Positions 1 to 13,644 of a stretch of DNA of 64,000 nt are shown piece by piece (position 1 is the first letter of the stretch; each line of letters begins with the position of its first letter). Origin of the DNA: Achromobacter sp. AONIH1. Its GTDB lineage: Bacteria; Pseudomonadota; Gammaproteobacteria; Burkholderiales; Burkholderiaceae_B. Both the position numbers and the translations under genes were made by a program. The notes beneath the pieces were generated by a model. It saw only the letters and a program-made list of their open reading frames with translations, made no database searches and was not told where the DNA came from. The DNA is taken from positions 5,146,001 to 5,210,000 of the forward strand of contig NZ_CP026124.1 of NCBI RefSeq assembly GCF_002902905.1, written 5' to 3'.

Positions 1-825
1 CTCGCGCAGGCGCGCCGGCTCGCCCACGCCGGACAGTTCCAGCAGCTGGGGCGTATTGACCGCGCCGGCGGCCAGCACCACCTCGCGCCGCGCGCGCACG
101 GTCTGCTCGCGGCCGTCGCGCAGCAGGCGCAGGCCGACACAGCGCATGCCCTCGAACAGCAGCTCGCGCGCATGGGCGCCGGTCAGCACCTGCAGATTGG
201 CGCGCTGGCGCACCGGCCTCAGGAAGGCCTTGGAGGTGTTCCAGCGCCAGCCGCCGCGCTGGTTCACTTCGAAGTAGCCGCTGCCGAAGTTGTCGCCGCG
301 ATTGAAATCGTCCACCGGCGGGATGCCGGCCTGGTCCGCCGCCTGGGCGAAGGCTTCCAGGATGTCCCAGCGCAGCCTCTGCGACTCCACCCGCCACTCG
401 CCGCCCGCGCCATGATGCTCGGACGCGCCGCGATGATGGTCCTCGCTGCGCTTGAACACGGGCAGCACCCGGTCCCAGCTCCAGGCTTCGTCACCGCTCA
501 GCGCGGCCCACTGGTCGTAGTCCTCGCGCTGGCCGCGCATGTAGATCATGCCGTTGATGGACGAGCAGCCGCCCAGCACGCGGCCGCGCGGATAGATCAG
601 CGAGCGTCCGCCCAGGCCGGGCTCGCTGGCCGTGCGGTACATCCAGTCGGTGCGCGGATTGCCGATGCAATGCAGATAGCCGACGGGAATGTGGATCCAG
701 TGGTAGTTGTCGCGCCCGCCGGCCTCCAGCAGCAGCACCCGCGTTGCCGGATCGCGGCTCAGCCGGTTGGCCAGCACGCAGCCGGCCGACCCCGCGCCCA
801 CGATGATGTAGTCGTATGTCTCCAT
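1..825 (-). CDS. GMC family FAD-dependent oxidoreductase (choline dehydrogenase-like), C-terminus cut by window edge
   Basis: The 275 codons present give the N-terminal half of a glucose-methanol-choline oxidoreductase. The protein opens with METYDYIIVGAGSAGCVLA, the FAD-binding dinucleotide fold. It then shows the GMC signature GGCSSINGMIYMRG and the second signature near AAGAVNTPQLLELSGVG. Such enzymes oxidise alcohols or aldehydes with FAD; the substrate cannot be read from sequence. The start at 825 is the ATG directly before the nucleotide-binding strand. It is transcribed away from the LysR gene across a 185-bp gap, the usual arrangement for a LysR-controlled target (inference). The C-terminal substrate and active-site His region lies outside the window. 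Confidence 0.93.
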   Translation of the reverse strand, partial: METYDYIIVGAGSAGCVLANRLSRDPATRVLLLEAGGRDNYHWIHIPVGYLHCIGNPRTDWMYRTASEPGLGGRSLIYPRGRVLGGCSSINGMIYMRGQREDYDQWAALSGDEAWSWDRVLPVFKRSEDHHRGASEHHGAGGEWRVESQRLRWDILEAFAQAADQAGIPPVDDFNRGDNFGSGYFEVNQRGGWRWNTSKAFLRPVRQRANLQVLTGAHARELLFEGMRCVGLRLLRDGREQTVRARREVVLAAGAVNTPQLLELSGVGEPARLRE

Positions 826-1987: not shown

Positions 1988-2021
1988 GCATTGCGCGGAT
2001 AGCAGGCGCAGGTCCCGGCTA
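1988..2021 (+). promoter_or_regulatory. AraC/XylS-type tandem operator upstream of the catabolic operon
   Basis: Two direct units of the form GCA-N5-CGG[A/C]TA lie exactly 20 bp apart: GCA at 1988-1990 with CGGATA at 1996-2001, and GCA at 2008-2010 with CGGCTA at 2016-2021. XylS/BenR-type AraC activators bind tandem TGCA-N6-GGNTA half-sites two helical turns apart, which this closely resembles. The same pair occurs upstream of the AraC gene at 9571-9605. The downstream unit ends about 100 bp before the SDR start codon, a suitable place for an activator next to a weak -35. No clear sigma-70 -10 is visible. Confidence 0.62.
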
Positions 2022-2122: not shown

Positions 2123-2911
2123 ATGAAGGATCTGGAAGGCAAGGTCGCCATCGTCACCGGCGGCGCCACCCTGATCGGCGCGGGCGTGGTGCGCGCGCTG
2201 CGCGGCTACGGCGTGCGCGTCGCCGTGCTGGACGTGGACGGCGCGGGCGGCGAGAAGGTCGCCGCCGCAGACCCGCAAGGCTGCCGCGCCTGGCAGGTCG
2301 ACATCACCGACGACGCGCGACTGGAACAGTGCGTGGCCGAGGCCGCCAGGCACTTCGGCCGGCTGGACTTCCTGGTCAACCTGGCCGCCACCTACCTGGA
2401 CGACGGCGCGGCATCGGGCCGCGCGGACTGGCTGCGCGCGCTGGACATCAACCTGGTCAGCGCGGTCATGGCCGCGCGCGCCGCGCGCCCCCACCTGGTG
2501 GCCTCCGGCGGCGGCGCCATCGTCAACTTCACCAGCATCTCGGCCAAGGCCGCGCAGACGGGCCGCTGGCTCTATCCGGTGTCCAAGGCCGCGCTGGTGC
2601 AGCTCACACGCAACATGGCGATGGACTTCGCCGGCGACCGCATCCGCGTCAATTCGGTGTCGCCAGGCTGGACCTGGTCGCGCGTGATGGACGAGATCAC
2701 CGGCGGCGACCGCGCCAAGACCGACCGCGTGGCCGCCGACTACCACCTGCTCGGCCGCGTCGGCGATCCGCGCGAAGTCGCCGACGTGGTGGCCTTCCTG
2801 CTGTCGGGACACGCGTCCTTCGTCACCGGCGCCGACTACGCGGTCGACGGCGGCTATTCGGCCATGGGTCCCGAGCAGGCCAAGCCCGCCATTCCGCGCC
2901 TGGCCGAGTAA
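2123..2911 (+). CDS. SDR family NAD(P)-dependent oxidoreductase
   Basis: A 262-residue classical short-chain dehydrogenase. The cofactor motif is TGGATLIGAG at residues 12-21. The catalytic triad reads Ser138, Tyr151 and Lys155 (YPVSK), and the C-terminus DGGYSA is typical of the family. I chose the ATG at 2123 because AGGGGAA lies just upstream and the protein starts with the usual family N-terminus; an in-frame start at 2021 would add an unconserved tail. It is the first gene of the operon. In indole-type clusters an SDR oxidises a dihydrodiol or hydroxy intermediate made by the monooxygenase; that role here is inference. Confidence 0.93.
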   Translation: MKDLEGKVAIVTGGATLIGAGVVRALRGYGVRVAVLDVDGAGGEKVAAADPQGCRAWQVDITDDARLEQCVAEAARHFGRLDFLVNLAATYLDDGAASGRADWLRALDINLVSAVMAARAARPHLVASGGGAIVNFTSISAKAAQTGRWLYPVSKAALVQLTRNMAMDFAGDRIRVNSVSPGWTWSRVMDEITGGDRAKTDRVAADYHLLGRVGDPREVADVVAFLLSGHASFVTGADYAVDGGYSAMGPEQAKPAIPRLAE

Positions 2912-2962
2912 GGCCCGCGCCATCCTTCGCCGCAATCCGGACATTCCATTCAGGAGAACTTG

Positions 2963-4207
2963 ATGACTCGAATCGCAATCGTGGGCGGCGGCCAGGCGGG
3001 CATGCCGCTGGCCCTGGGCCTGCTGGACAAAGGCTATGACGTCACCGTGGCCACCAACCGCAAGCCCGACGAGGTGCGCGCCGGCCAGGTCATGTCCAGC
3101 CAGTGCATCTTCGACCCGGCGCTGCGGATCGAGCGCGACCTGGGCATCGACGAATGGGGCGATGCCTGTCCGCCTGTCCAGGGCATCGGCTTCGCCGTGC
3201 CGCATCCCGAGCAGGCCGGCGCCAAGGTCATCGACTGGGCCGCGCCGCTGGACCGCCCGGCCCAGGCCGTGGACCAGCGCCTGAAGATGCCGGTGTGGCT
3301 GGAGCGCTTCGCCGCGCGCGGCGGCAATCTGCTGATCCAGGACGTGGGCGTGGCCGAGCTGGAAGCGCTGGCGCAAAGCCACGACCTGGTCATCCTGGCC
3401 GCCGGCAAGGGCGAGGTGGTCAAGCTGTTCGAGCGCGACGCCGCGCGCTCGCAGTTCGACAAGCCGCAACGCGCGCTGGCGCTGACCTATGTGCACGGCC
3501 TGGCGCCCACGCCAGACTATTCGCGCGTGTCCTTCAACCTGGTGCCCGGCGTCGGCGAGTACTTCGTGTTCCCCGCGCTGACGCTCAGCGGCCCCTGCGA
3601 CATCATGGTGTTCGAGGGCGTGCCCGGCGGCCCGCTGGACTGCTGGCGCGACCTCAAATCGCCAGCCGAGCACCTGGCCGCGAGCAAGCGTTTCCTGGAC
3701 ACCTACCTGCCCTCGGAAGGCGCGCGCGCCGCCAAGGTGGAACTGACCGACGCCAAGGGCATCCTGGCCGGCGCCTTCGCGCCCACCATCCGCAAGCCGG
3801 TGATGACGCTGCCATCCGGCAAGCTGGTGTTCGGCCTGGGCGACGCGGTGGTGGTCAACGATCCGGTCACCGGCCAGGGTTCGAACAACGCCACCAAAGC
3901 GGCCAAGGTCTACCTGGACGCGATCCTGGCGCACGGCGACGCGCCTTACACGCGCGCATGGATGGAACAGACCTTCGAGCGCTATTGGGACTATGCCAAG
4001 TGGGTGGTGCAATGGACCAACTCGCTGCTGCTGCCGCCCCCGCCGCACATCCTGCAGGTGCTGGGCGCGGCGCAGCAGTCGCCGGGGCTGGCCGGCCTCA
4101 TCGCCAACGGCTTCAATCATCCGCCCAGCTACTTCCCCTGGTGGAGCGACGCCGCCGAGGCCGGCGAGCTGCTCAAGCGGCACCAGGCCGTGGCGCGCGC
4201 CGCCTGA
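2963..4207 (+). CDS. StyA-like two-component flavoprotein monooxygenase, oxygenase subunit (indole/styrene monooxygenase family)
   Basis: A 414-residue single-component FAD oxygenase that needs reduced flavin from a separate reductase. The N-terminal Rossmann motif is GGGQAG at residues 8-13. Family landmarks shared with styrene monooxygenase StyA are RKPDE near residue 36, a VDQRL segment, FDKPQRALAL, and GLGD followed by DPVTGQGSN near the C-terminal third. The phrase VMSSQCIFD and the HPEQ region look closer to the indole monooxygenase branch than to true styrene monooxygenases; this is from memory, not an alignment. The ATG at 2963 has AGGAG 7 nt upstream. The reductase follows directly. 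Likely reaction: epoxidation or hydroxylation of an aromatic N-heterocycle or vinyl arene. Confidence 0.88.
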   Translation: MTRIAIVGGGQAGMPLALGLLDKGYDVTVATNRKPDEVRAGQVMSSQCIFDPALRIERDLGIDEWGDACPPVQGIGFAVPHPEQAGAKVIDWAAPLDRPAQAVDQRLKMPVWLERFAARGGNLLIQDVGVAELEALAQSHDLVILAAGKGEVVKLFERDAARSQFDKPQRALALTYVHGLAPTPDYSRVSFNLVPGVGEYFVFPALTLSGPCDIMVFEGVPGGPLDCWRDLKSPAEHLAASKRFLDTYLPSEGARAAKVELTDAKGILAGAFAPTIRKPVMTLPSGKLVFGLGDAVVVNDPVTGQGSNNATKAAKVYLDAILAHGDAPYTRAWMEQTFERYWDYAKWVVQWTNSLLLPPPPHILQVLGAAQQSPGLAGLIANGFNHPPSYFPWWSDAAEAGELLKRHQAVARAA

Positions 4208-4231
4208 CCGCCCGTGCATGAGGAACCCAGC

Positions 4232-4819
4232 ATGAGCACGCTCCTGGCCGTCCGGCAATGCCATGAAGCCCCCGCCTGCGCCGCCTGGGGCAGCGTCGAC
4301 CTGGCGCCCCGCGCGCTGCGCGACCTGCTGGGCAGCTACCCGACCGGCGTGGCCATCGTCACGACGCGCGCCGCCGACGGCCGCAACGTGGGGCTGACCA
4401 TCAATTCCTTCGCCTCGCTGTCGCTGGATCCGCCGCTGGTGCTGTGGAGCCTGGTGAACCGCTCGCCCAACCTGGCGGTGTTCCGCGACAGCGCGCATTT
4501 CGCGATCAACATCCTGGCCAGCGGCCACGAGGCGCTGGCGCGGCGCTTCGCCGATCCGGCGGTGCCGGACAAGTTCGCCGACGTGACGGTGCGCGAGACG
4601 CCCGAGGGCGTGGCCGCCATCGACGGCGCGCTGGCCACCCTGGTCTGCGCCCACGACCACTGTCGCACGGTGGGCGACCACCTGCTGCTGGTCGGCCAGG
4701 TGGTGCGCGTGGCCAGCCAGCCCAGCGAACCGCTGGTGTTCCATGCCGGCCGCTTCACCTCGGTGCCGGCCCGCGCCCCGGCCATCCCCTCATCCCAACC
4801 CGGAGATTCCCAGCCATGA
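4232..4819 (+). CDS. Flavin reductase (StyB/HpaC-like) partner of the monooxygenase
   Basis: A 195-residue flavin reductase of the StyB/HpaC type. Diagnostic blocks are YPTGVAIVTT, then TINSFASLSLDPPLVLWSL, then FAINILASG. It would reduce FAD or FMN with NAD(P)H and hand it to the adjacent oxygenase. The ATG at 4232 is preceded by GAGGAAC at a good spacing; a GTG at 4214 would add six residues. The gene begins 24 bp after the oxygenase. Its stop overlaps the next start (ATGA at 4816), so translation is probably coupled through the operon. Confidence 0.92.
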   Translation: MSTLLAVRQCHEAPACAAWGSVDLAPRALRDLLGSYPTGVAIVTTRAADGRNVGLTINSFASLSLDPPLVLWSLVNRSPNLAVFRDSAHFAINILASGHEALARRFADPAVPDKFADVTVRETPEGVAAIDGALATLVCAHDHCRTVGDHLLLVGQVVRVASQPSEPLVFHAGRFTSVPARAPAIPSSQPGDSQP

Positions 4820-5607
4820 GCGCCCCGGCCCTCCTGCCCGAACTGGCCCTGCGCATGGCGCGGGGCGCCGTCCGCGTGGTCGACCTGACCCAGACCCTGT
4901 CGCCCTCGTTCCCGGCGCTGCAGCTGCCGCCGCAATTCGGCCAGGTGCAGGCCTTCAAGATCGAACGCATCTCGCACTACGACGAGGCCGGCCCCGGCTG
5001 GTACTGGAACAACTTCTCCTGTGGCGAGCACACCGGCACGCACTTCGACGCCCCGGTCCATTGGATCAGCGGCCGCGACCATCCCGCCAACAGCGTCGAC
5101 ACCATCGCGCCCGAGCACTTCATCGCGCCGGCCGTGGTGCTGGACGCCAGCGCCGAGGTCGCGCAGAACGACGACTGGCTGCTGACCGTGGAATTCATCC
5201 AGGACTGGGAGCGCCGCCACGGCCGCATCCCGCCGCGCGCCTGGGTGCTGCTGCGCAGCGACTGGTCGCGGCGCGCGCAGGATCCTGCTGCCTTCCTCAA
5301 CCTGCGCGAGGACGGCGCGCACACGCCCGGCCCGACGCAGGAAGCCGTGCAATGGCTGATCCGCGAGCGCGACGCGCACGGCTTCGGAGTGGAGACCATC
5401 AACACCGATGCCGGCCAGTCCCATGCCTGGCCGCTGCCCTATCCCTGCCACACGCTGATGCATGGCGCCAACCGCTACGGCCTGCAATGCCTGAAGAACC
5501 TGGATCAGCTGCCGCCGCAGGGCGCCATGATCCTGGCCGCGCCGCTGAAGATCGAGGGCGGCTCAGGCAGCCCCTTGCGCGTGCTGGCGCTGGTGGAGCA
5601 GGCATGA
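4816..5607 (+). CDS. Cyclase-family metal-dependent hydrolase (isatin hydrolase / kynurenine formamidase-like)
   Basis: A 263-residue protein of the cyclase family. The metal-binding motif HTGTHFDAPVH supplies His72, His76, Asp78 and His82, preceded by VDLTQTLSPSFP. Family members hydrolyse cyclic or linear amides, for example N-formylkynurenine or isatin to isatinate, using Mn or Zn. Next to an indole-type monooxygenase, isatin or a related oxindole is the most natural substrate (inference). Start and upstream stop overlap as ATGA, and the stop in turn overlaps the next start at 5604. Confidence 0.9.
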   Translation: MSAPALLPELALRMARGAVRVVDLTQTLSPSFPALQLPPQFGQVQAFKIERISHYDEAGPGWYWNNFSCGEHTGTHFDAPVHWISGRDHPANSVDTIAPEHFIAPAVVLDASAEVAQNDDWLLTVEFIQDWERRHGRIPPRAWVLLRSDWSRRAQDPAAFLNLREDGAHTPGPTQEAVQWLIRERDAHGFGVETINTDAGQSHAWPLPYPCHTLMHGANRYGLQCLKNLDQLPPQGAMILAAPLKIEGGSGSPLRVLALVEQA

Positions 5608-7211
5608 GCGCGCCGACCGAAACCCAGGTGGTGTTCGTCGGCAGCGGCATCAATTCGCTGGTCGGCGCGGCGCTGCTGGCCGTGCGCGGCAAGCGCGTGC
5701 TGGTGCTGGAACGCAACGACCGGCTCGGCGGCTGCATCCGCACCGAGGAACTGTTCCCCGGCTACCGGCACGAGGTGTTCTCGTCCTGGCATCCGCTGTT
5801 CGTCGGCAGTCCGGGCTATGCCGAACTCAAGTCCGAGCTGGAGCAGGCCGGGCTGGAAGTGCTGTGCGGCGACTATTCGACCGGCCTGGTCGGGCCGGAC
5901 GGCCGGGGCCTGGCGCTCAGGCAGGACATGGCCGACGCCGCCCGGCGCCTGGACGCGCTCTCGCCCGGCGACGGCCAGGCCTTGCAGGACATGGCCGCGC
6001 GCATGTTCGGCGAGGACGCCGCGCTGACCTTCGGCCTGCTGGGCAAGAATCCCTACAGCTGGGATCTGCTCAAGCTGCTGTACAGCGAATGGCGCAAGCG
6101 CGGGCTGGACGGCATGACCGCCTTCGCCGCCGGCGCGCTGGAGAATTTCCGCCGCTGGTCCGAGCGCACGCTGCGCTCGGACGCGGCGCGCGCGCTGATC
6201 GCGCCCTGGACCTTGCACTCCGGCCTGGGGCCGGACGATGCCGGTTCGGCGCTGATCGGCAAGCTGACCTTCGCCGCCGTGGTCAGCGGCGGCATGCCCG
6301 TGATCAAGGGCGGCGGCAGCCGGCTGGTCGAGGCGCTGGCCCGCGTCATCGAGAATCGCGGCGGCCAGCTGCTGACCAACGCGCAGGTGGACCGCGTGCT
6401 GGTCGAGGGCCAGGGACGGCGCGCCCGCGCCGTCGGCGTGCAGCTGGCCGACGACGGCCGCGTGCGCGCCCGCGACGCCGTGGTCTGCAACGTCACGCCG
6501 CAACAACTCTACGGCCAGCTGCTGCCCGACGCGCCGCCACCGGCGCGCGAGCGCGCGCAGGCCTACCGCTACGGCCGTGGCTGCATGCAGCTGCATTTCG
6601 CGCTGAACGCGCCGCCGGCCTGGACGGAGCCCGAACTGGTCAAGGTGCCGCTGGTGCACCTGACCGAAAGCCTGGAACAGGTCTGCGCCTCTGTTACCGA
6701 GGCCAACAACGGCCTCTTGCCCTCGCGCCCGACGTTGGCCATCGGCCAGCCGGTGGCGGTGGACCCGTCGCGCGCACCCGAGGGCGGCTGGATCCTGTGG
6801 ATCCAGATGCAGGAAATGCCCGCGCGCCTGAAGGGCGACGCCGCCGGCCAGATCGACACGCCCGCCGACGGCCGCTGGAACGAGGCCGTGCGCGAGGCCT
6901 ATGCCGACCGCGTCCAGGCGCGCCTGGAACGGGTCATGCCCGGACTGGCCGAGCGCATCGTCGGCCGCCGCGCCTACTCGCCGGCCGACCTGGAGGCGCT
7001 GAACTGCAACCTGGTCGGCGGCGATCCGTACTCGGGCATCTGCTCGCCCGATCAGTTCTTCTGGCTGCGCCCCTTCGCCAGCGGCGGCGGCGCGCGCGGC
7101 CATCGAACGCCGGTCGCCGGCCTGTACCACATCGGCGCGTCCACCCACCCCGGTCCCGGACTGGGCGCGGGCTCGGGCACGCTGGTCGCCCGGGAGATCG
7201 CGCGGAAATAA
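5604..7211 (+). CDS. CrtI/PYROXD-like FAD-dependent oxidoreductase (phytoene desaturase-related)
   Basis: A 535-residue flavoprotein. The N-terminus VVFVGSGINSLVGAALLAV followed by VLERNDRLGGC is the FAD fold of the CrtI/amine-oxidase superfamily. The C-terminal GLYHIGASTHPGPGLGAGSG is the matching FAD-contact block of phytoene desaturase-like proteins. The start overlaps the preceding stop (ATGA), so it is genuinely part of the operon. No carotenoid genes are nearby, so a carotenoid role is unlikely. It may dehydrogenate an intermediate of the neighbouring aromatic pathway. The substrate is unknown and this is the least explained gene of the block. Confidence 0.85.
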   Translation: MSAPTETQVVFVGSGINSLVGAALLAVRGKRVLVLERNDRLGGCIRTEELFPGYRHEVFSSWHPLFVGSPGYAELKSELEQAGLEVLCGDYSTGLVGPDGRGLALRQDMADAARRLDALSPGDGQALQDMAARMFGEDAALTFGLLGKNPYSWDLLKLLYSEWRKRGLDGMTAFAAGALENFRRWSERTLRSDAARALIAPWTLHSGLGPDDAGSALIGKLTFAAVVSGGMPVIKGGGSRLVEALARVIENRGGQLLTNAQVDRVLVEGQGRRARAVGVQLADDGRVRARDAVVCNVTPQQLYGQLLPDAPPPARERAQAYRYGRGCMQLHFALNAPPAWTEPELVKVPLVHLTESLEQVCASVTEANNGLLPSRPTLAIGQPVAVDPSRAPEGGWILWIQMQEMPARLKGDAAGQIDTPADGRWNEAVREAYADRVQARLERVMPGLAERIVGRRAYSPADLEALNCNLVGGDPYSGICSPDQFFWLRPFASGGGARGHRTPVAGLYHIGASTHPGPGLGAGSGTLVAREIARK

Positions 7212-7280
7212 CTGCCCGACGCCCCGGGCCTTGCCACACCTTCCGGCGCGTGGATCCGTCCGCGCGCCCGGGACGGCCGC

Positions 7281-7311
7281 GCGCGCCTTTCGCCCATCGC
7301 GGGCGGCGCGC
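7281..7311 (+). other. Strong intercistronic hairpin between oxidoreductase and channel genes
   Basis: Two nested stems, GCGCGCC with GGCGCGC and inside it CGCCC with GGGCG around ATCGC, lie in the 157-bp gap before the channel gene. There is no U-tract, so it is more likely a processing or stability element, or a partial attenuator, than a full terminator. Only the base pairing is seen; function is inferred. Confidence 0.35.
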
Positions 7312-7368
7312 GCCACGCCAGCCAGTTGCCGTACCAACAACAACACACCGTGGTTAGGAGACAAAGCT

Positions 7369-8256
7369 ATGCGCAAATCCATGCCCGCCTGGGCACTACT
7401 GCTGGCGTCGGCCCTGGGGCCGTCCGCGGCGCTGGCCATCGAGGGCGGCGCCCTGCCGATCTATCCCGACGGCCTGGAAAACTACATGGTCGGCGCCCTG
7501 CCCCCGCCGGGCGTGCACTTCCTGACCTACGGCGGCGCGCTGCGCTACGACACGCTGCGCGGCAACAGCGGCGAGTCGCTGGTGCGCGACTTCAAGGTCA
7601 ATGTCAACATGCTGGCGCCACGCCTCATCTGGGTGGCCCCCCAGCCGGTGCTGGGCGGCAGCCTGGCGCTGCACACGGTGGTGCCGCTGCTGGACGTGGA
7701 CTTCCGCGCCAACGGCGCGCGCTTCAAGAGCTCGGGCCTGGGCGACATCGCCGTCGGCGCGGCGCTGGGCTATCACGCCTCGCCGGCGCTGCACTATCTG
7801 TTCGGCGTCGATGTCTACGCGCCCACGGGCAAGTACGACGCCAAGGATCCGTCCAGCCTGGGCAAGAACTACTGGACCATCCAGCCCCTGGCCGCGCTGA
7901 CCTACACGCAGCCCACCGGCCTGAACGCCGACCTGAAGGTCATGTACGACTTCAACCAGCGCAACAGCGACACGCGCACCCGTTCGGGCCAGGCGATCCA
8001 CGCCGACTACAGCCTGGGCTGGGGCCTGGGCGGCGGCTGGGTGGCGGGCGTGGGCGGCTATGTCTACCAGCAGGTCACGGACGACAAGGGTCCGAACAGC
8101 GCGATGGGCAGGGCGCGCGCCCTGGGCGTCGGTCCGTCGATCCGCTACGCCAGCCAGGGCGGCTGGCTGTTCACGCTGAAGTGGCAGAAGGACTTCGAGG
8201 TGCGCAACCGGCCCGAGGGCAACCAGCTGCTGGCCAAGCTGGTGATTCCGTTCTGA
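7369..8256 (+). CDS. Outer-membrane channel of the phenol meta-pathway transporter family (COG4313/SphA-like)
   Basis: A 295-residue exported beta-barrel protein. The signal peptide ends at ALA (residues 21-23). The body has alternating amphipathic strands rich in Gly and aromatic residues, and the last residue is Phe, the usual outer-membrane assembly signal. The family accompanies aromatic and hydrocarbon degradation clusters and is thought to let hydrophobic substrates into the periplasm. The ATG at 7369 has AGGAG 8 nt upstream. It is separated from the previous gene by 157 bp containing a strong hairpin, so its expression may differ from the enzymes. Substrate is inferred only from context. 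Confidence 0.85.
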   Translation: MRKSMPAWALLLASALGPSAALAIEGGALPIYPDGLENYMVGALPPPGVHFLTYGGALRYDTLRGNSGESLVRDFKVNVNMLAPRLIWVAPQPVLGGSLALHTVVPLLDVDFRANGARFKSSGLGDIAVGAALGYHASPALHYLFGVDVYAPTGKYDAKDPSSLGKNYWTIQPLAALTYTQPTGLNADLKVMYDFNQRNSDTRTRSGQAIHADYSLGWGLGGGWVAGVGGYVYQQVTDDKGPNSAMGRARALGVGPSIRYASQGGWLFTLKWQKDFEVRNRPEGNQLLAKLVIPF

Positions 8257-8307: not shown

Positions 8308-9363
8308 TCAGTGCCGCCGCAGCGTCTGGCTGGGCGTTTCCAGGTAGCGGGCCTTGTAGTCGTTGCTGAAACGGCCCATATGCGCGAAGCCCCAGCGCAG
8401 CGCCACGCCGGCGACGCTGGCGGCCTCGCCGCTCAGCAGCTCGGTGCGCGCGCGTTCCATGCGCAGGTCGCGCAGATAGTGCATGGGGCTGACGCCCAGG
8501 AATTCCTTGAAACCGCTGTAGAGGCTGCGCACGCTGACGCCGGCCACCTGCGCCAGCTGCTCGACGCTGAGCGGCTCGTGCGCGTGCGCCTGCAGGTAAT
8601 CCTGCGCCCGCCGCACGTGGCGCGGCAGGATCGAACTGCGCCGCGCCGGGGCGGTCTCGCTGTAGTTGTGCAGATGCGAGGTCAGCAGGATCGAGGCGGC
8701 CAGCTGCTCGACCTGCGACAGCACCAGCTTGTGCTGCTCCAGGTCGGGATAATGGGTGGCGCAATCGACCAGATAGGACAGCAGGCAGCTCCAGGGTGCG
8801 CAGTCGCGCCAGCGAAAGCCCAGCTCGAAATGCAGCGGCTTGTCCAGCGGATGGCCCAGATAGCCGACCAGCGTGCGCTCGACCAGCGAGCGCGAGATGC
8901 GCAGCATGACCTGGTCGTTGCCGGCCTCCCAGCACATGCGCGTATCGCATTCAGGGCTGAGCACCGAGGCCAGCTCCGGCGAGGAATCGATGCGCTGCCC
9001 GCCGCTCTCGATGGCGGCCGTGCCGCACAGCGGCATCTGCACCAGGAAGAAGCTTTCCAGCGGCCCCGGCTCGATGCGCACGGTAGCGCCGTAGCGCAGC
9101 CGGCTCAGCGACAGGTCGCCCAACCCCGTGTAGTGCATGCGTGCGTCCAGCCGCTCGCCGCCGGCGGTGCGGGTCAGCTGGTGAGGCTTCATGACGCGCC
9201 CGACCATCGAGCGCACCTCATCCAGGTCGGTGGAGGCGAACAGCAGCTTTTCCGGCGCGTTGAGCAGCCGGTCGATGGGCGTGCCGGTGGCGGAGGTGCC
9301 GGTGGCGGACGCGCGCGACGGCGCGGCCGAGGATGGGGACATCGGGATCAACGTAGTGGGCAT
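8308..9363 (-). CDS. AraC family transcriptional regulator with AraC-binding-like N-terminal domain
   Basis: A 351-residue regulator. Residues 252-351 carry the double HTH of AraC/XylS proteins (LSVEQLAQVAGVSVRSLYSGF, later ALRWGFAHMGRFSNDYK). Roughly residues 30-220 resemble the AraC-binding-like sensing domain of activators of aromatic catabolism. The ATG at 9363 is preceded by GGGAGG at 8 nt; a longer frame upstream lacks support. It converges on the operon and is the natural local activator. AraC proteins control several known indole clusters (family knowledge). The tandem operator at 9571-9605 suggests autoregulation. Confidence 0.93.
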   Translation of the reverse strand: MPTTLIPMSPSSAAPSRASATGTSATGTPIDRLLNAPEKLLFASTDLDEVRSMVGRVMKPHQLTRTAGGERLDARMHYTGLGDLSLSRLRYGATVRIEPGPLESFFLVQMPLCGTAAIESGGQRIDSSPELASVLSPECDTRMCWEAGNDQVMLRISRSLVERTLVGYLGHPLDKPLHFELGFRWRDCAPWSCLLSYLVDCATHYPDLEQHKLVLSQVEQLAASILLTSHLHNYSETAPARRSSILPRHVRRAQDYLQAHAHEPLSVEQLAQVAGVSVRSLYSGFKEFLGVSPMHYLRDLRMERARTELLSGEAASVAGVALRWGFAHMGRFSNDYKARYLETPSQTLRRH

Positions 9364-9570: not shown

Positions 9571-9605
9571 TATCCGGTTCGTGCTTACATTATCCGAATA
9601 GTGCT
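9571..9605 (-). promoter_or_regulatory. Tandem AraC/XylS-type operator upstream of the AraC gene
   Basis: On the + strand TATCCG-N4-GTGCTT occurs twice head to tail (9571-9586 and 9591-9606). Read on the - strand each unit is GCA-N5-CGGATA, period exactly 20 bp. This is the same pattern and spacing as at 1988-2021 and it points toward the AraC gene. The proximal unit sits just upstream of where a -35 would be if transcription starts near 9540. Confidence 0.6.
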
Positions 9606-12423: not shown

Positions 12424-13569
12424 CTACCGGAACCGCAGATTCCCCCGCCCCAATTCCCCCACCGACTTGCACCCCATCAACCGCAACGCCCGCTCGATCT
12501 CCACCCGCATCAGATCCAGCGCGCGCTCCACTCCCGGCTGGCCGGCGGCCGCCAGCGGAAACAGGTAGTAGCGACCCAGCCCCACGGCCTTCGCGCCCAG
12601 CGACAGCGCCTTCAGCACGTGGGTGCCGCGCTGCACGCCGCCGTCCATCATCACGTCGATGCGGTCGCCCACCGCGTCGACGATCTCGGCCAGCTGGTCG
12701 AAAGCGCTGCGCGAGCCATCGAGCTGGCGGCCTCCGTGGTTCGACAGCACGATGCCGGTGCAGCCGATGTCGGCGGCCCGACGCGCGTCCTCCACCGACA
12801 TCACGCCCTTCAGGCAGAACTGGCCGCCCCAGTGCGCGACCATCTCGGCCACGTCGTCCCAGGTCATGGACGGATCCAGCATCTCGGTGAAATAGCGGCT
12901 GATGGACATGACGCCGCCGCCCATGTCCACGTGGCCGTCCAGCTGAGGCAGACGGAAGCGCTCGTGCGTGAAGTAGTTCAGCGCCCAGCCGGGCTTGGCC
13001 ATGAACTGGGCGATGCCGGCCAGGTTGAGCCGGAACGGGATGGCGAAGCCGGTGCGCTTGTCGCGCTCGCGGTTGCCGCCGGTGATGCTGTCCACCGTCA
13101 GCATCATCACCTGCACGCCGGCCTCCTTGGCGCGCGCCATCATGTCGCGGTTCAGGCCCCGGTCCTTGTGGAAATAGAACTGGTAGACCTGGGGGCCGCC
13201 ACTGATCCGGCGCGCTTCCTCCAGGCTGACGGTGCCCAACGACGAAACGCCGAACAGGGTGCCGTGCCGGCCGGCGGCGGCGGCCACGGCGCGCTCGCCG
13301 TCGTGATGGAACAGGCGCTGCAGGGCCGTGGGCGAACAATAGACCGGCAGCGCCAGCTTCTGGCCCATCACGGTCACGGACAGGTCCACGTCGGCCACGC
13401 CGCGCAGCACGTTAGGCACCAGGTCGCAGTCCTCGAAGGCGGCGGTGTTGCGCGCGTAGGTGGTTTCATCGTCGGCCGCGCCGTCGATGTAGTTGAAGAT
13501 CGGCCCGGGCAGGCGCCGGCGCGCCATGGCGCGGAAGTCGTGAAAGTTGTGGCACTGGTTCAGGCGCAT
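12424..13569 (-). CDS. FMN-dependent alpha-hydroxy-acid dehydrogenase (L-lactate dehydrogenase LldD family)
   Basis: A 381-residue FMN enzyme. N-terminal PIFNYIDGAADDE and the signature SNHGGRQLDG with catalytic His278 are diagnostic of the lactate, mandelate and glycolate oxidoreductase family. It oxidises an L-2-hydroxy acid to the 2-oxo acid, passing electrons to the respiratory chain in the dehydrogenase members. The start ATG at 13569 is the usual family start (MRLNQCHNFHDF). It is divergent from thiM and not in an obvious operon. Substrate is uncertain: lactate is possible, but family members differ in specificity and no lactate permease is adjacent. Confidence 0.92.
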   Translation of the reverse strand: MRLNQCHNFHDFRAMARRRLPGPIFNYIDGAADDETTYARNTAAFEDCDLVPNVLRGVADVDLSVTVMGQKLALPVYCSPTALQRLFHHDGERAVAAAAGRHGTLFGVSSLGTVSLEEARRISGGPQVYQFYFHKDRGLNRDMMARAKEAGVQVMMLTVDSITGGNRERDKRTGFAIPFRLNLAGIAQFMAKPGWALNYFTHERFRLPQLDGHVDMGGGVMSISRYFTEMLDPSMTWDDVAEMVAHWGGQFCLKGVMSVEDARRAADIGCTGIVLSNHGGRQLDGSRSAFDQLAEIVDAVGDRIDVMMDGGVQRGTHVLKALSLGAKAVGLGRYYLFPLAAAGQPGVERALDLMRVEIERALRLMGCKSVGELGRGNLRFR

Positions 13570-13644
13570 CGCGAGACCTTGGGACGGGCGTGGACGACGA
13601 AGGCGAAACCGGCGTGCAGCCATGCCGGGCGGACACATAGTGTA

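Follow-up and report, generated by a model that had tools for sequence, protein, structure and literature searches.

The window examined here, 64,000 nucleotides of the genome of Achromobacter sp. AONIH1 (contig NZ_CP026124.1, positions 5,146,001 to 5,210,000, forward strand), carries a compact plus-strand operon of six genes and a convergent AraC gene on the other strand, as delimited by the open reading frame (ORF) list and domain searches. This operon probably breaks down indole via isatin. Its description as an inducible indole-catabolic operon of isatin type is one we favour with some confidence from sequence comparison, and indole is very probably the substrate. Gene identities, gene order, operators and co-occurrence are read from sequence; the steps assigned to the indole monooxygenase (IMO), the short-chain dehydrogenase/reductase (SDR) and the isatin hydrolase (IH) are taken from characterised homologues, while those assigned to a flavin adenine dinucleotide (FAD) oxidoreductase (FADox) and to IorAB are proposed from gene context only.

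In the proposed pathway, the SDR would oxidise the 2,3-diol to dioxindole, FADox would remove a hydride from C3 of dioxindole to give isatin, and the Mn-dependent IH would open isatin to isatinate (2-aminophenylglyoxylate). The porin would pass substrate or products, and the AraC protein would act through two GCA-N6-GGNTA double operators. Isatinate would be dealt with by enzymes encoded elsewhere. The most likely one is IorAB, a 2-oxoacid oxidoreductase encoded in the auxin (iad-type) locus of this genome, which would yield 2-aminobenzoyl-coenzyme A (CoA); this could be processed onward through a salicylyl-CoA-hydroxylase-family enzyme at 1.667 Mb. The features are as follows (window coordinates).

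1988..2021, plus strand: AraC/XylS-type double operator, perfect match to GCA-N6-GGATA-N6-GCA-N6-GGCTA
2123..2911, plus strand: SDR of PRK08265 type (NF006121, 424 bits, cut-off 294)
2963..4207, plus strand: predicted IMO oxygenase component (IndA/IifC/GS-C type), 414 residues (Smoa_sbd, PF17885)
4232..4819, plus strand: NAD(P)H:flavin reductase, 195 residues (Flavin_Reduct, PF01613, 128 bits)
4816..5607, plus strand: predicted IH, 263 residues (match to 5nmp; motifs)
5604..7211, plus strand: FADox, carotenoid-desaturase-like flavoprotein, GS-O homologue, 535 residues
7369..8256, plus strand: putative MetA-pathway outer-membrane porin (GS-E/IpoC type; PF13557, 212.5 bits)
8308..9363, minus strand: AraC-family regulator (AndR/WhpR/GS-R like), 351 residues (AraC_binding_2, HTH_18)
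9571..9604, minus strand: second double operator, upstream of the AraC gene, perfect match

All operon ORFs run uninterrupted from ATG to stop. The original prediction had named, in tight order, an SDR, a StyA-like oxygenase of 414 residues, a flavin reductase, a cyclase-family hydrolase, a channel and an AraC gene. These genes are all present, the AraC gene lying just beyond the interval then given, but the FAD oxidoreductase was left out of the list. Most starts were also said to overlap, whereas 4-bp overlaps occur at two of the five junctions (reductase/hydrolase and hydrolase/FADox) and the remaining gaps measure 51, 24 and 157 bp.

Oxygenase, dehydrogenase and hydrolase

The oxygenase scores 606 bits against PDB entry 7z4x, which we take to be VpIndA1, but 168 bits against styrene monooxygenase A (3ihm), and its 223 bits against the NCBI StyA model fall short of the cut-off of 550. 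Residues S45, Q47, V72, I75 and A94, with I49 in place of the methionine, occupy the presumed places (numbering transferred by hand) of the IMO fingerprint S46-Q48-M50-V/I73-I76-A96 (PMC13101512). By its bit scores the enzyme is a predicted indole monooxygenase rather than a styrene one; the outcome named beforehand as refuting, a firm grouping with styrene monooxygenases, was not found. In the host genome, a single 6.65 Mb contig, it is the only match to PF17885.

A relative of the SDR is present in 75 of 80 related IMO loci. We regard it as a putative dehydrogenase converting indole-2,3-dihydrodiol to 3-hydroxyindolin-2-one (dioxindole), a step taken from its homologue in iif clusters (PMC6221969).

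The hydrolase aligns over nearly its whole chain with isatin hydrolase 5nmp (511 bits). It contains HTGTHFDAPVH at 72, WYW at 62 and GLQC at 222, to be compared with the published signature of an HxG[T/A]HxDxPxH metal motif, GLQC/GLAS and a WxW or FxW pocket (PMC6117287). The metal motif and the GLQC/GLAS motif occur in all 48 IH sequences compared, the window's included. By these marks the predicted enzyme is an isatin hydrolase, and we have high confidence that it acts on isatin. Thus far the indole/isatin reading of the original prediction holds on sequence comparison. Two further IH relatives are encoded in the host genome: one (64% identity) in an iad-type locus with IorAB at about 2.107-2.125 Mb (L115, L147), the other (60%) at 1032116 (L116), with no iad genes in the 17 kb fetched.

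Conservation of the gene set and its operators

Relatives were collected by scanning species genomes with an IMO alignment. Matches were obtained in 582 stretches, 570 of which encode a relative; the best 80 were kept, and the sample is therefore bounded at about 64% identity. Contents were counted within 10 kb, where the contig allows, in 81 loci (the 80 plus the window). IH and FADox occur together in 29 loci, the window among them. In 24 others FADox has no IH nearby (15 Achromobacter, 7 other Alcaligenaceae, 2 Comamonadaceae); 20 contain only IifA, 2 only IH and 6 none of these, two of the 6 lying at contig ends. IifA was found together with IH or FADox in none of the 81. Of the 80 related loci, 19 keep the order SDR, IMO, reductase, IH, FADox, and 10 of these 19 also have the porin and the AraC gene in reverse orientation. 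IH and FADox lie less than 400 bp apart on the same strand in 28 of the 33 distinct loci having both. Because this order recurs, and because the window's two perfect operators sit at the operon's two promoter regions, the gene set is not a product of chance. A LysR gene at 1011-1898 was considered as a further member and dropped; relatives scoring at least 150 bits occur in 0 of the 80 loci, and it is therefore not counted in the operon.

The comparison with clusters of iif/ind type made in the original prediction does not stand: no IifA match was found in the first 16 kb of the window, which rejects a classical iif cluster, and IH and FADox take its place. IifA/DhoA proteins are of the dienelactone-hydrolase family and SnoaL-like. 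On the IMO tree, FADox-type oxygenases all fall in one clade of 61 rows (SH-aLRT 95). Seven further rows of this clade lack both FADox and IifA in their vicinity, and none of its rows is of IifA type. The window IMO nests within this clade and groups with Allofranklinella, one Comamonadaceae metagenome-assembled genome (MAG) and two Lautropia MAGs (SH-aLRT 97), apart from the Achromobacter copies L038-L062. Between the iad proteins of the host and those of a genome of the same genus, identity is 86-96%, and the latter are in turn 88-97% identical to Achromobacter ones. Since the IMO groups outside Achromobacter though these proteins match the same genus, the operon may have been horizontally acquired.

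At the genome level, 30 of the 80 IMO genomes were chosen to cover all cluster types, the other 50 lying outside this sample. IH, FADox and IorA were each found in the same 24 of the 30, IorA being the thiamine diphosphate-binding subunit of an oxidoreductase of indolepyruvate type. This count overstates independence, since the 24 include close kin (seven Achromobacter, three Alcaligenes), and since the Achromobacter IH match (62-64% identical) proved, in all three genomes that were fetched, to be the iad-locus type and to adjoin IorB. Of the other six, five have IifA clusters (three Cupriavidus, one Marinobacterium, one Halomonas), and the sixth, a Duganella, has an IMO by itself. In the Achromobacter and Alcaligenes clusters FADox lies next to the IMO, and IH was found in or beside the iad locus (three Achromobacter genomes and one Alcaligenes genome fetched).

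Full-length IifA is encoded in 13 of the 30 genomes: five with IifA clusters, seven Achromobacter and one Burkholderia anthina. Mutual exclusion of IifA and FADox fails at the genome level, as the seven Achromobacter and the B. anthina genome carry both; it is thus a property of clusters, not of genomes. A full-length IifA relative (73%) also stands beside Rieske-oxygenase genes in another Achromobacter locus (L126:8627-9871, genome G373), with no IMO found in the 19 kb fetched, so that IifA-type enzymes may also serve pathways besides indole clusters.

In an order-level sample of 399 genomes (host included), FADox occurs in 6, IMO in 9 and IH in 20, four of the last being 32-35% identical. 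All six FADox genomes have IMO and IH, although four of the six seem to be the same genomes as those behind the 80-locus scan. The three IMO genomes without FADox carry IifA beside the IMO, and none of the 13 genomes that match IH but not IMO has FADox. With the host genome removed, the association of FADox gives Fisher p values of about 7e-10 with IMO and 1.4e-7 with IH, uncorrected for kinship. A class-wide sample is thin, with IMO relatives in 8 of 370 genomes (host included) and seven of the nine matches showing 33-42% identity.

The operator at 1988-2021 ends 101 bp before the SDR start. Together with 9571-9604 it constitutes the only two sites in the 64 kb at no more than two mismatches, where 0.16 would be expected. 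Such repeats are typical of XylS-like regulators. The AraC protein finds its best NCBIfam model in AndR (204.5 bits, below the cut-off of 350); family membership is what suggests the roles of the porin and of this protein. Related loci totalling 2.09 Mb and selected around such clusters contain 27 occurrences of the strict double repeat GCA-N6-GGNTA (a single site present in both L065 and L124 accounts for two of them), against none in five shuffled sets. Eight sites precede SDR genes (two of them the same site), 13 precede IifA genes in 13 loci, nearly all Cupriavidus, and six precede AraC genes; the strict repeat is thus not universal. Among 39 upstream regions of 300 bp from dissimilar FADox-type clusters, GGATA-N15-GGATA was present in 12 and GGATA-N15-GGCTA in 11, against 3 for the best such pair in each of three shuffled sets. 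A looser profile returned 186 sites scoring at least 11, of which 133 lie before SDR, AraC or IifA genes and 36 before none of the mapped genes, compared with 12 to 16 sites in shuffled loci. The Vibrio IH-FADox operon has weak sites only (15.2 and 13.7). The words operator, consensus and binding site are absent from the available text of the WhpR paper (PMC12538310), and the operator is new to the literature searched, which comprised open-licence papers.

FADox, IorAB and the steps after dioxindole

FADox has the fold of hydride-abstracting flavoproteins. A fold search puts carotenoid desaturases first, but the same fold is found in numerous amine oxidases and even in Rab GDI; neither the CrtO model (154 bits, cut-off 1000) nor crtI_fam (101 bits, cut-off 238) is reached. 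The protein is 66% identical to Providencia database proteins (P0104, P0117), with homologues in many Burkholderiales, Xenorhabdus and Vibrio. No function for GS-O or FADox was found in the searched literature. Because iad loci handle isatin and isatinate with no FADox gene in the locus, while FADox follows an indole oxygenase, we place it before isatin, as a proposed dioxindole-to-isatin oxidase or dehydrogenase. Conversion of dioxindole to isatin is the simplest place for the enzyme, and we lean slightly towards FADox being what makes isatin.

Background on the iad loci comes from Variovorax and Achromobacter, where isatin and isatinic acid are processed and dioxindole is also reported as an intermediate (PMC9613470, PMC12633357). 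From the 13 order-sample genomes that match IH but not IMO, two loci were fetched (L138, L139); in both, IH belongs to an iad-type locus that also encodes a Rieske oxygenase, a CoA ligase, an SDR and IorB. IorAB is proposed for the next step because isatinate is the sole 2-oxoacid seen in these pathways; from gene context only, we are evenly divided on whether IorAB uses isatinate. In the literature searched no tie between the two was found. Of 54 FADox loci, counted at a slightly looser threshold that lets in one locus with a 38% paralogue, 12 include IorA or IorB in the stretch fetched, against 0 of 20 IifA loci. Two Vibrio genomes encode IH, FADox, IorA, IorB, a thioesterase, a salicylyl-CoA 5-hydroxylase-like enzyme and a gentisate-dioxygenase-like enzyme on one strand, outside the IMO locus fetched. 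In Burkholderia anthina, Paraburkholderia kururiensis and Trinickia dinghuensis, the genes from IorA through to the dioxygenase-like one keep this order and are found downstream of the IMO locus, FADox lying upstream.

The host encodes a salicylyl-CoA 5-hydroxylase-family enzyme at 1666918 (782 residues; 1427 bits, cut-off 1078), which we infer to be a 2-aminobenzoyl-CoA oxygenase. A benzoate-CoA-ligase-like gene (351 bits, below the cut-off of 375) and a thioesterase-like gene follow, and these genes (L151, 1.6669-1.6745 Mb) are a likely sink for anthranilate or its CoA ester. The anthranilate-type end product first suggested would accordingly need qualification, as the onward route possibly leads to isatinate and then 2-aminobenzoyl-CoA rather than to free anthranilate.

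More broadly, there could be two interchangeable routes on from dioxindole. One would use IifA. The other would use FADox and IH to isatinate and then thiamine diphosphate (ThDP)-dependent IorAB to 2-aminobenzoyl-CoA, with neither free anthranilate nor an ATP-dependent ligase, followed in some species by a salicylyl-CoA-hydroxylase-like enzyme, a thioesterase and a gentisate-dioxygenase-like enzyme. In a bolder variant, hydrogen peroxide from FADox acting as an oxidase would chemically decarboxylate isatinate, so that FADox and IH would perform the net IifA reaction, dioxindole + O2 = anthranilate + CO2, balanced on paper only. We offer this scheme tentatively and are somewhat more inclined to doubt it than to accept it.

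Several observations weigh against the pathway as proposed. FADox is at most 22% identical to its listed structural matches, and therefore the fold names no substrate. The IMO tree needs just one change to account for the difference between IifA and FADox clusters; this rejects the idea that exclusion arose many times independently and leaves a single replacement, not repeated evidence. The presence of IH in Achromobacter may be owed to auxin breakdown. In one genome of the order sample (G745: L130, L131, L132), which encodes two divergent IMO genes (59% and 51%), FADox is 51% identical and lies about 1 Mb from both, possibly a separate variant. The host IorA gene (2122831-2125017, in the iad-type locus) is about 3 Mb from the IMO, and no operator was found before IorA genes, whose best scores of -7.9 to 5.4 compare with 30.4 to 41.7 for the sites that built the profile. 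Published observations on strains that also made anthranilate fit isatinate and 2-aminobenzaldehyde, by formula only; if those strains lack iorAB, as we suppose, anthranilate can arise without IorAB. The Variovorax iadC-K2 region restores anthranilate with C8H7NO2, the formula of dioxindole, on its path, and no FADox-like gene is described there in the available text (PMC12633357). Finally, GS-B, GS-C and GS-D of Providencia rettgeri GS-2, without GS-O, already formed an isomer of Tyrian purple needing isatin in vitro, and genes A-D gave yellow E. coli colonies (PMC9871250). Isatin can therefore form without FADox, perhaps by air oxidation, and FADox may speed a step able to run unaided or may act elsewhere. 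GS-O alone or with GS-E gave no pigment (PMC9871250), a result that leaves the proposed step untouched.

The isatin-dependent products formed without GS-O, and the position of FADox directly after IH with overlapping start and stop, suit a different assignment, in which isatin arises from dioxindole unaided or by the SDR. FADox would then come in after isatin and, by oxidation, take isatinate or a compound derived from it (2-aminobenzaldehyde, for example) towards anthranilate. We consider it unlikely. Eight iad loci with an IH gene (L115, L117-L119, L133, L137-L139) were checked over the 17-20 kb fetched for each, and FADox was found in none of them; it is absent from all 13 order-sample genomes with IH but no IMO, and in Achromobacter clusters it stands beside the IMO without nearby IH. 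Moreover, we know of no flavoprotein of this fold that decarboxylates 2-oxoacids.

FADox could also protect the pathway by oxidising indoxyl or 2-oxindole side products and so prevent indigo and indirubin, as might be thought from the IMO in every FADox genome of the order sample and from indoxyl being a by-product of this oxygenase class. Such a role seems quite unlikely to us, given that iif clusters have the same kind of oxygenase with FADox in 0 of 20, and that adding GS-B alone already abolished indigo (PMC9871250). Very improbable, in our view, is a real substrate other than indole (an arene or N-heterocycle of styrene, skatole or quinolone type) with indole activity incidental. The isatin hydrolase in the operon fits indole, not styrene, and this match, together with the oxygenase scores (7z4x, 3ihm, StyA model), makes a styrene or other arene pathway unlikely. 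Group E oxygenases are promiscuous, which leaves some room for such a substrate; the close match to an indole enzyme and the weak one to StyA speak against it. Skatole monooxygenases do form a separate branch of the group, but the skatole enzyme is 27.7-35.1% identical to IMOs (PMC13101512). Dioxindole oxidation to isatin remains our preferred assignment for FADox.

Known systems and significance

The closest known counterpart is the GS-2 cluster GS-B, C, D, A, O, E, R (PMC9871250), which, judged by published gene numbers and domains, has the same kinds of gene in the same order in another organism. GS-O is given no function in its available text and is said to appear only in Providencia, whereas FADox is widespread here. 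Given indole, GS-C produced indigo and indirubin; with GS-B added, indigo disappeared and more of the Tyrian-purple isomer was formed, and with GS-A added, that isomer disappeared in turn (PMC9871250). A GS-2 product of formula C8H7NO3, called yellow and observed at m/z 164.0355, was assigned to N-formylanthranilate (PMC9871250). Isatinate has the same formula; isatinic acid has been assigned m/z 164.0356 (PMC8383072), and isatinate is measured by its 368 nm absorption (PMC6117287). The yellow product is as likely isatinate as N-formylanthranilate.

The iif, ind and WHOP (dho-ipo) clusters of Acinetobacter, Cupriavidus, Burkholderia and Pseudomonas savastanoi (PMC6221969, PMC12538310) share the SDR, IMO, reductase and AraC genes and in some cases a MetA porin, but carry IifA/DhoA where the window carries IH and FADox; in iif clusters IifA turns 3-hydroxyindolin-2-one into anthranilate. 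The iad loci (PMC9613470, PMC12633357) have an IH relative and IorAB and start from indole-3-acetate with a Rieske-type oxygenase; neither IMO nor FADox was found in the eight IH-bearing examples checked. RsIHA (5nmp) has the same metal and motifs as the window IH and was studied as an isolated enzyme, operon and gene cluster not being words of the available text (PMC6117287). The cluster order itself is already known; new to the literature searched are how widely the GS-O homologue is distributed and its association with IMO plus IH, together with the operator and the proposed IorAB link.

Two other flavoenzymes of unrelated type are encoded in the window: a lactate-dehydrogenase-like gene, flavin mononucleotide (FMN)-dependent, at 12424-13617 (minus strand), and a partial choline-dehydrogenase-like GMC oxidoreductase at 1-825 (minus strand).

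A 2018 review left open whether isatin takes part in indole degradation and stated that the functional gene of the gentisate branch was unrevealed, gentisate having been detected as an intermediate in 1983 (PMC6221969). In Alcaligenes sp. SORT26 (L125 and L149), a thioesterase, a hydroxylase, a gentisate-dioxygenase-like gene, IH, iad genes and an indole cluster lie within about 26 kb, with IorA another 5 kb out. They are candidates for encoding the route from indole through isatin to gentisate that was described in an Alcaligenes in 1983. The finding bears on the reading of mass spectra, since isatinate and N-formylanthranilate share one formula. If true, this type of operon would make isatin a true intermediate of indole breakdown, give an orphan enzyme a testable job, and suggest which genes, some of them Alcaligenes genes, might carry out the steps that follow.

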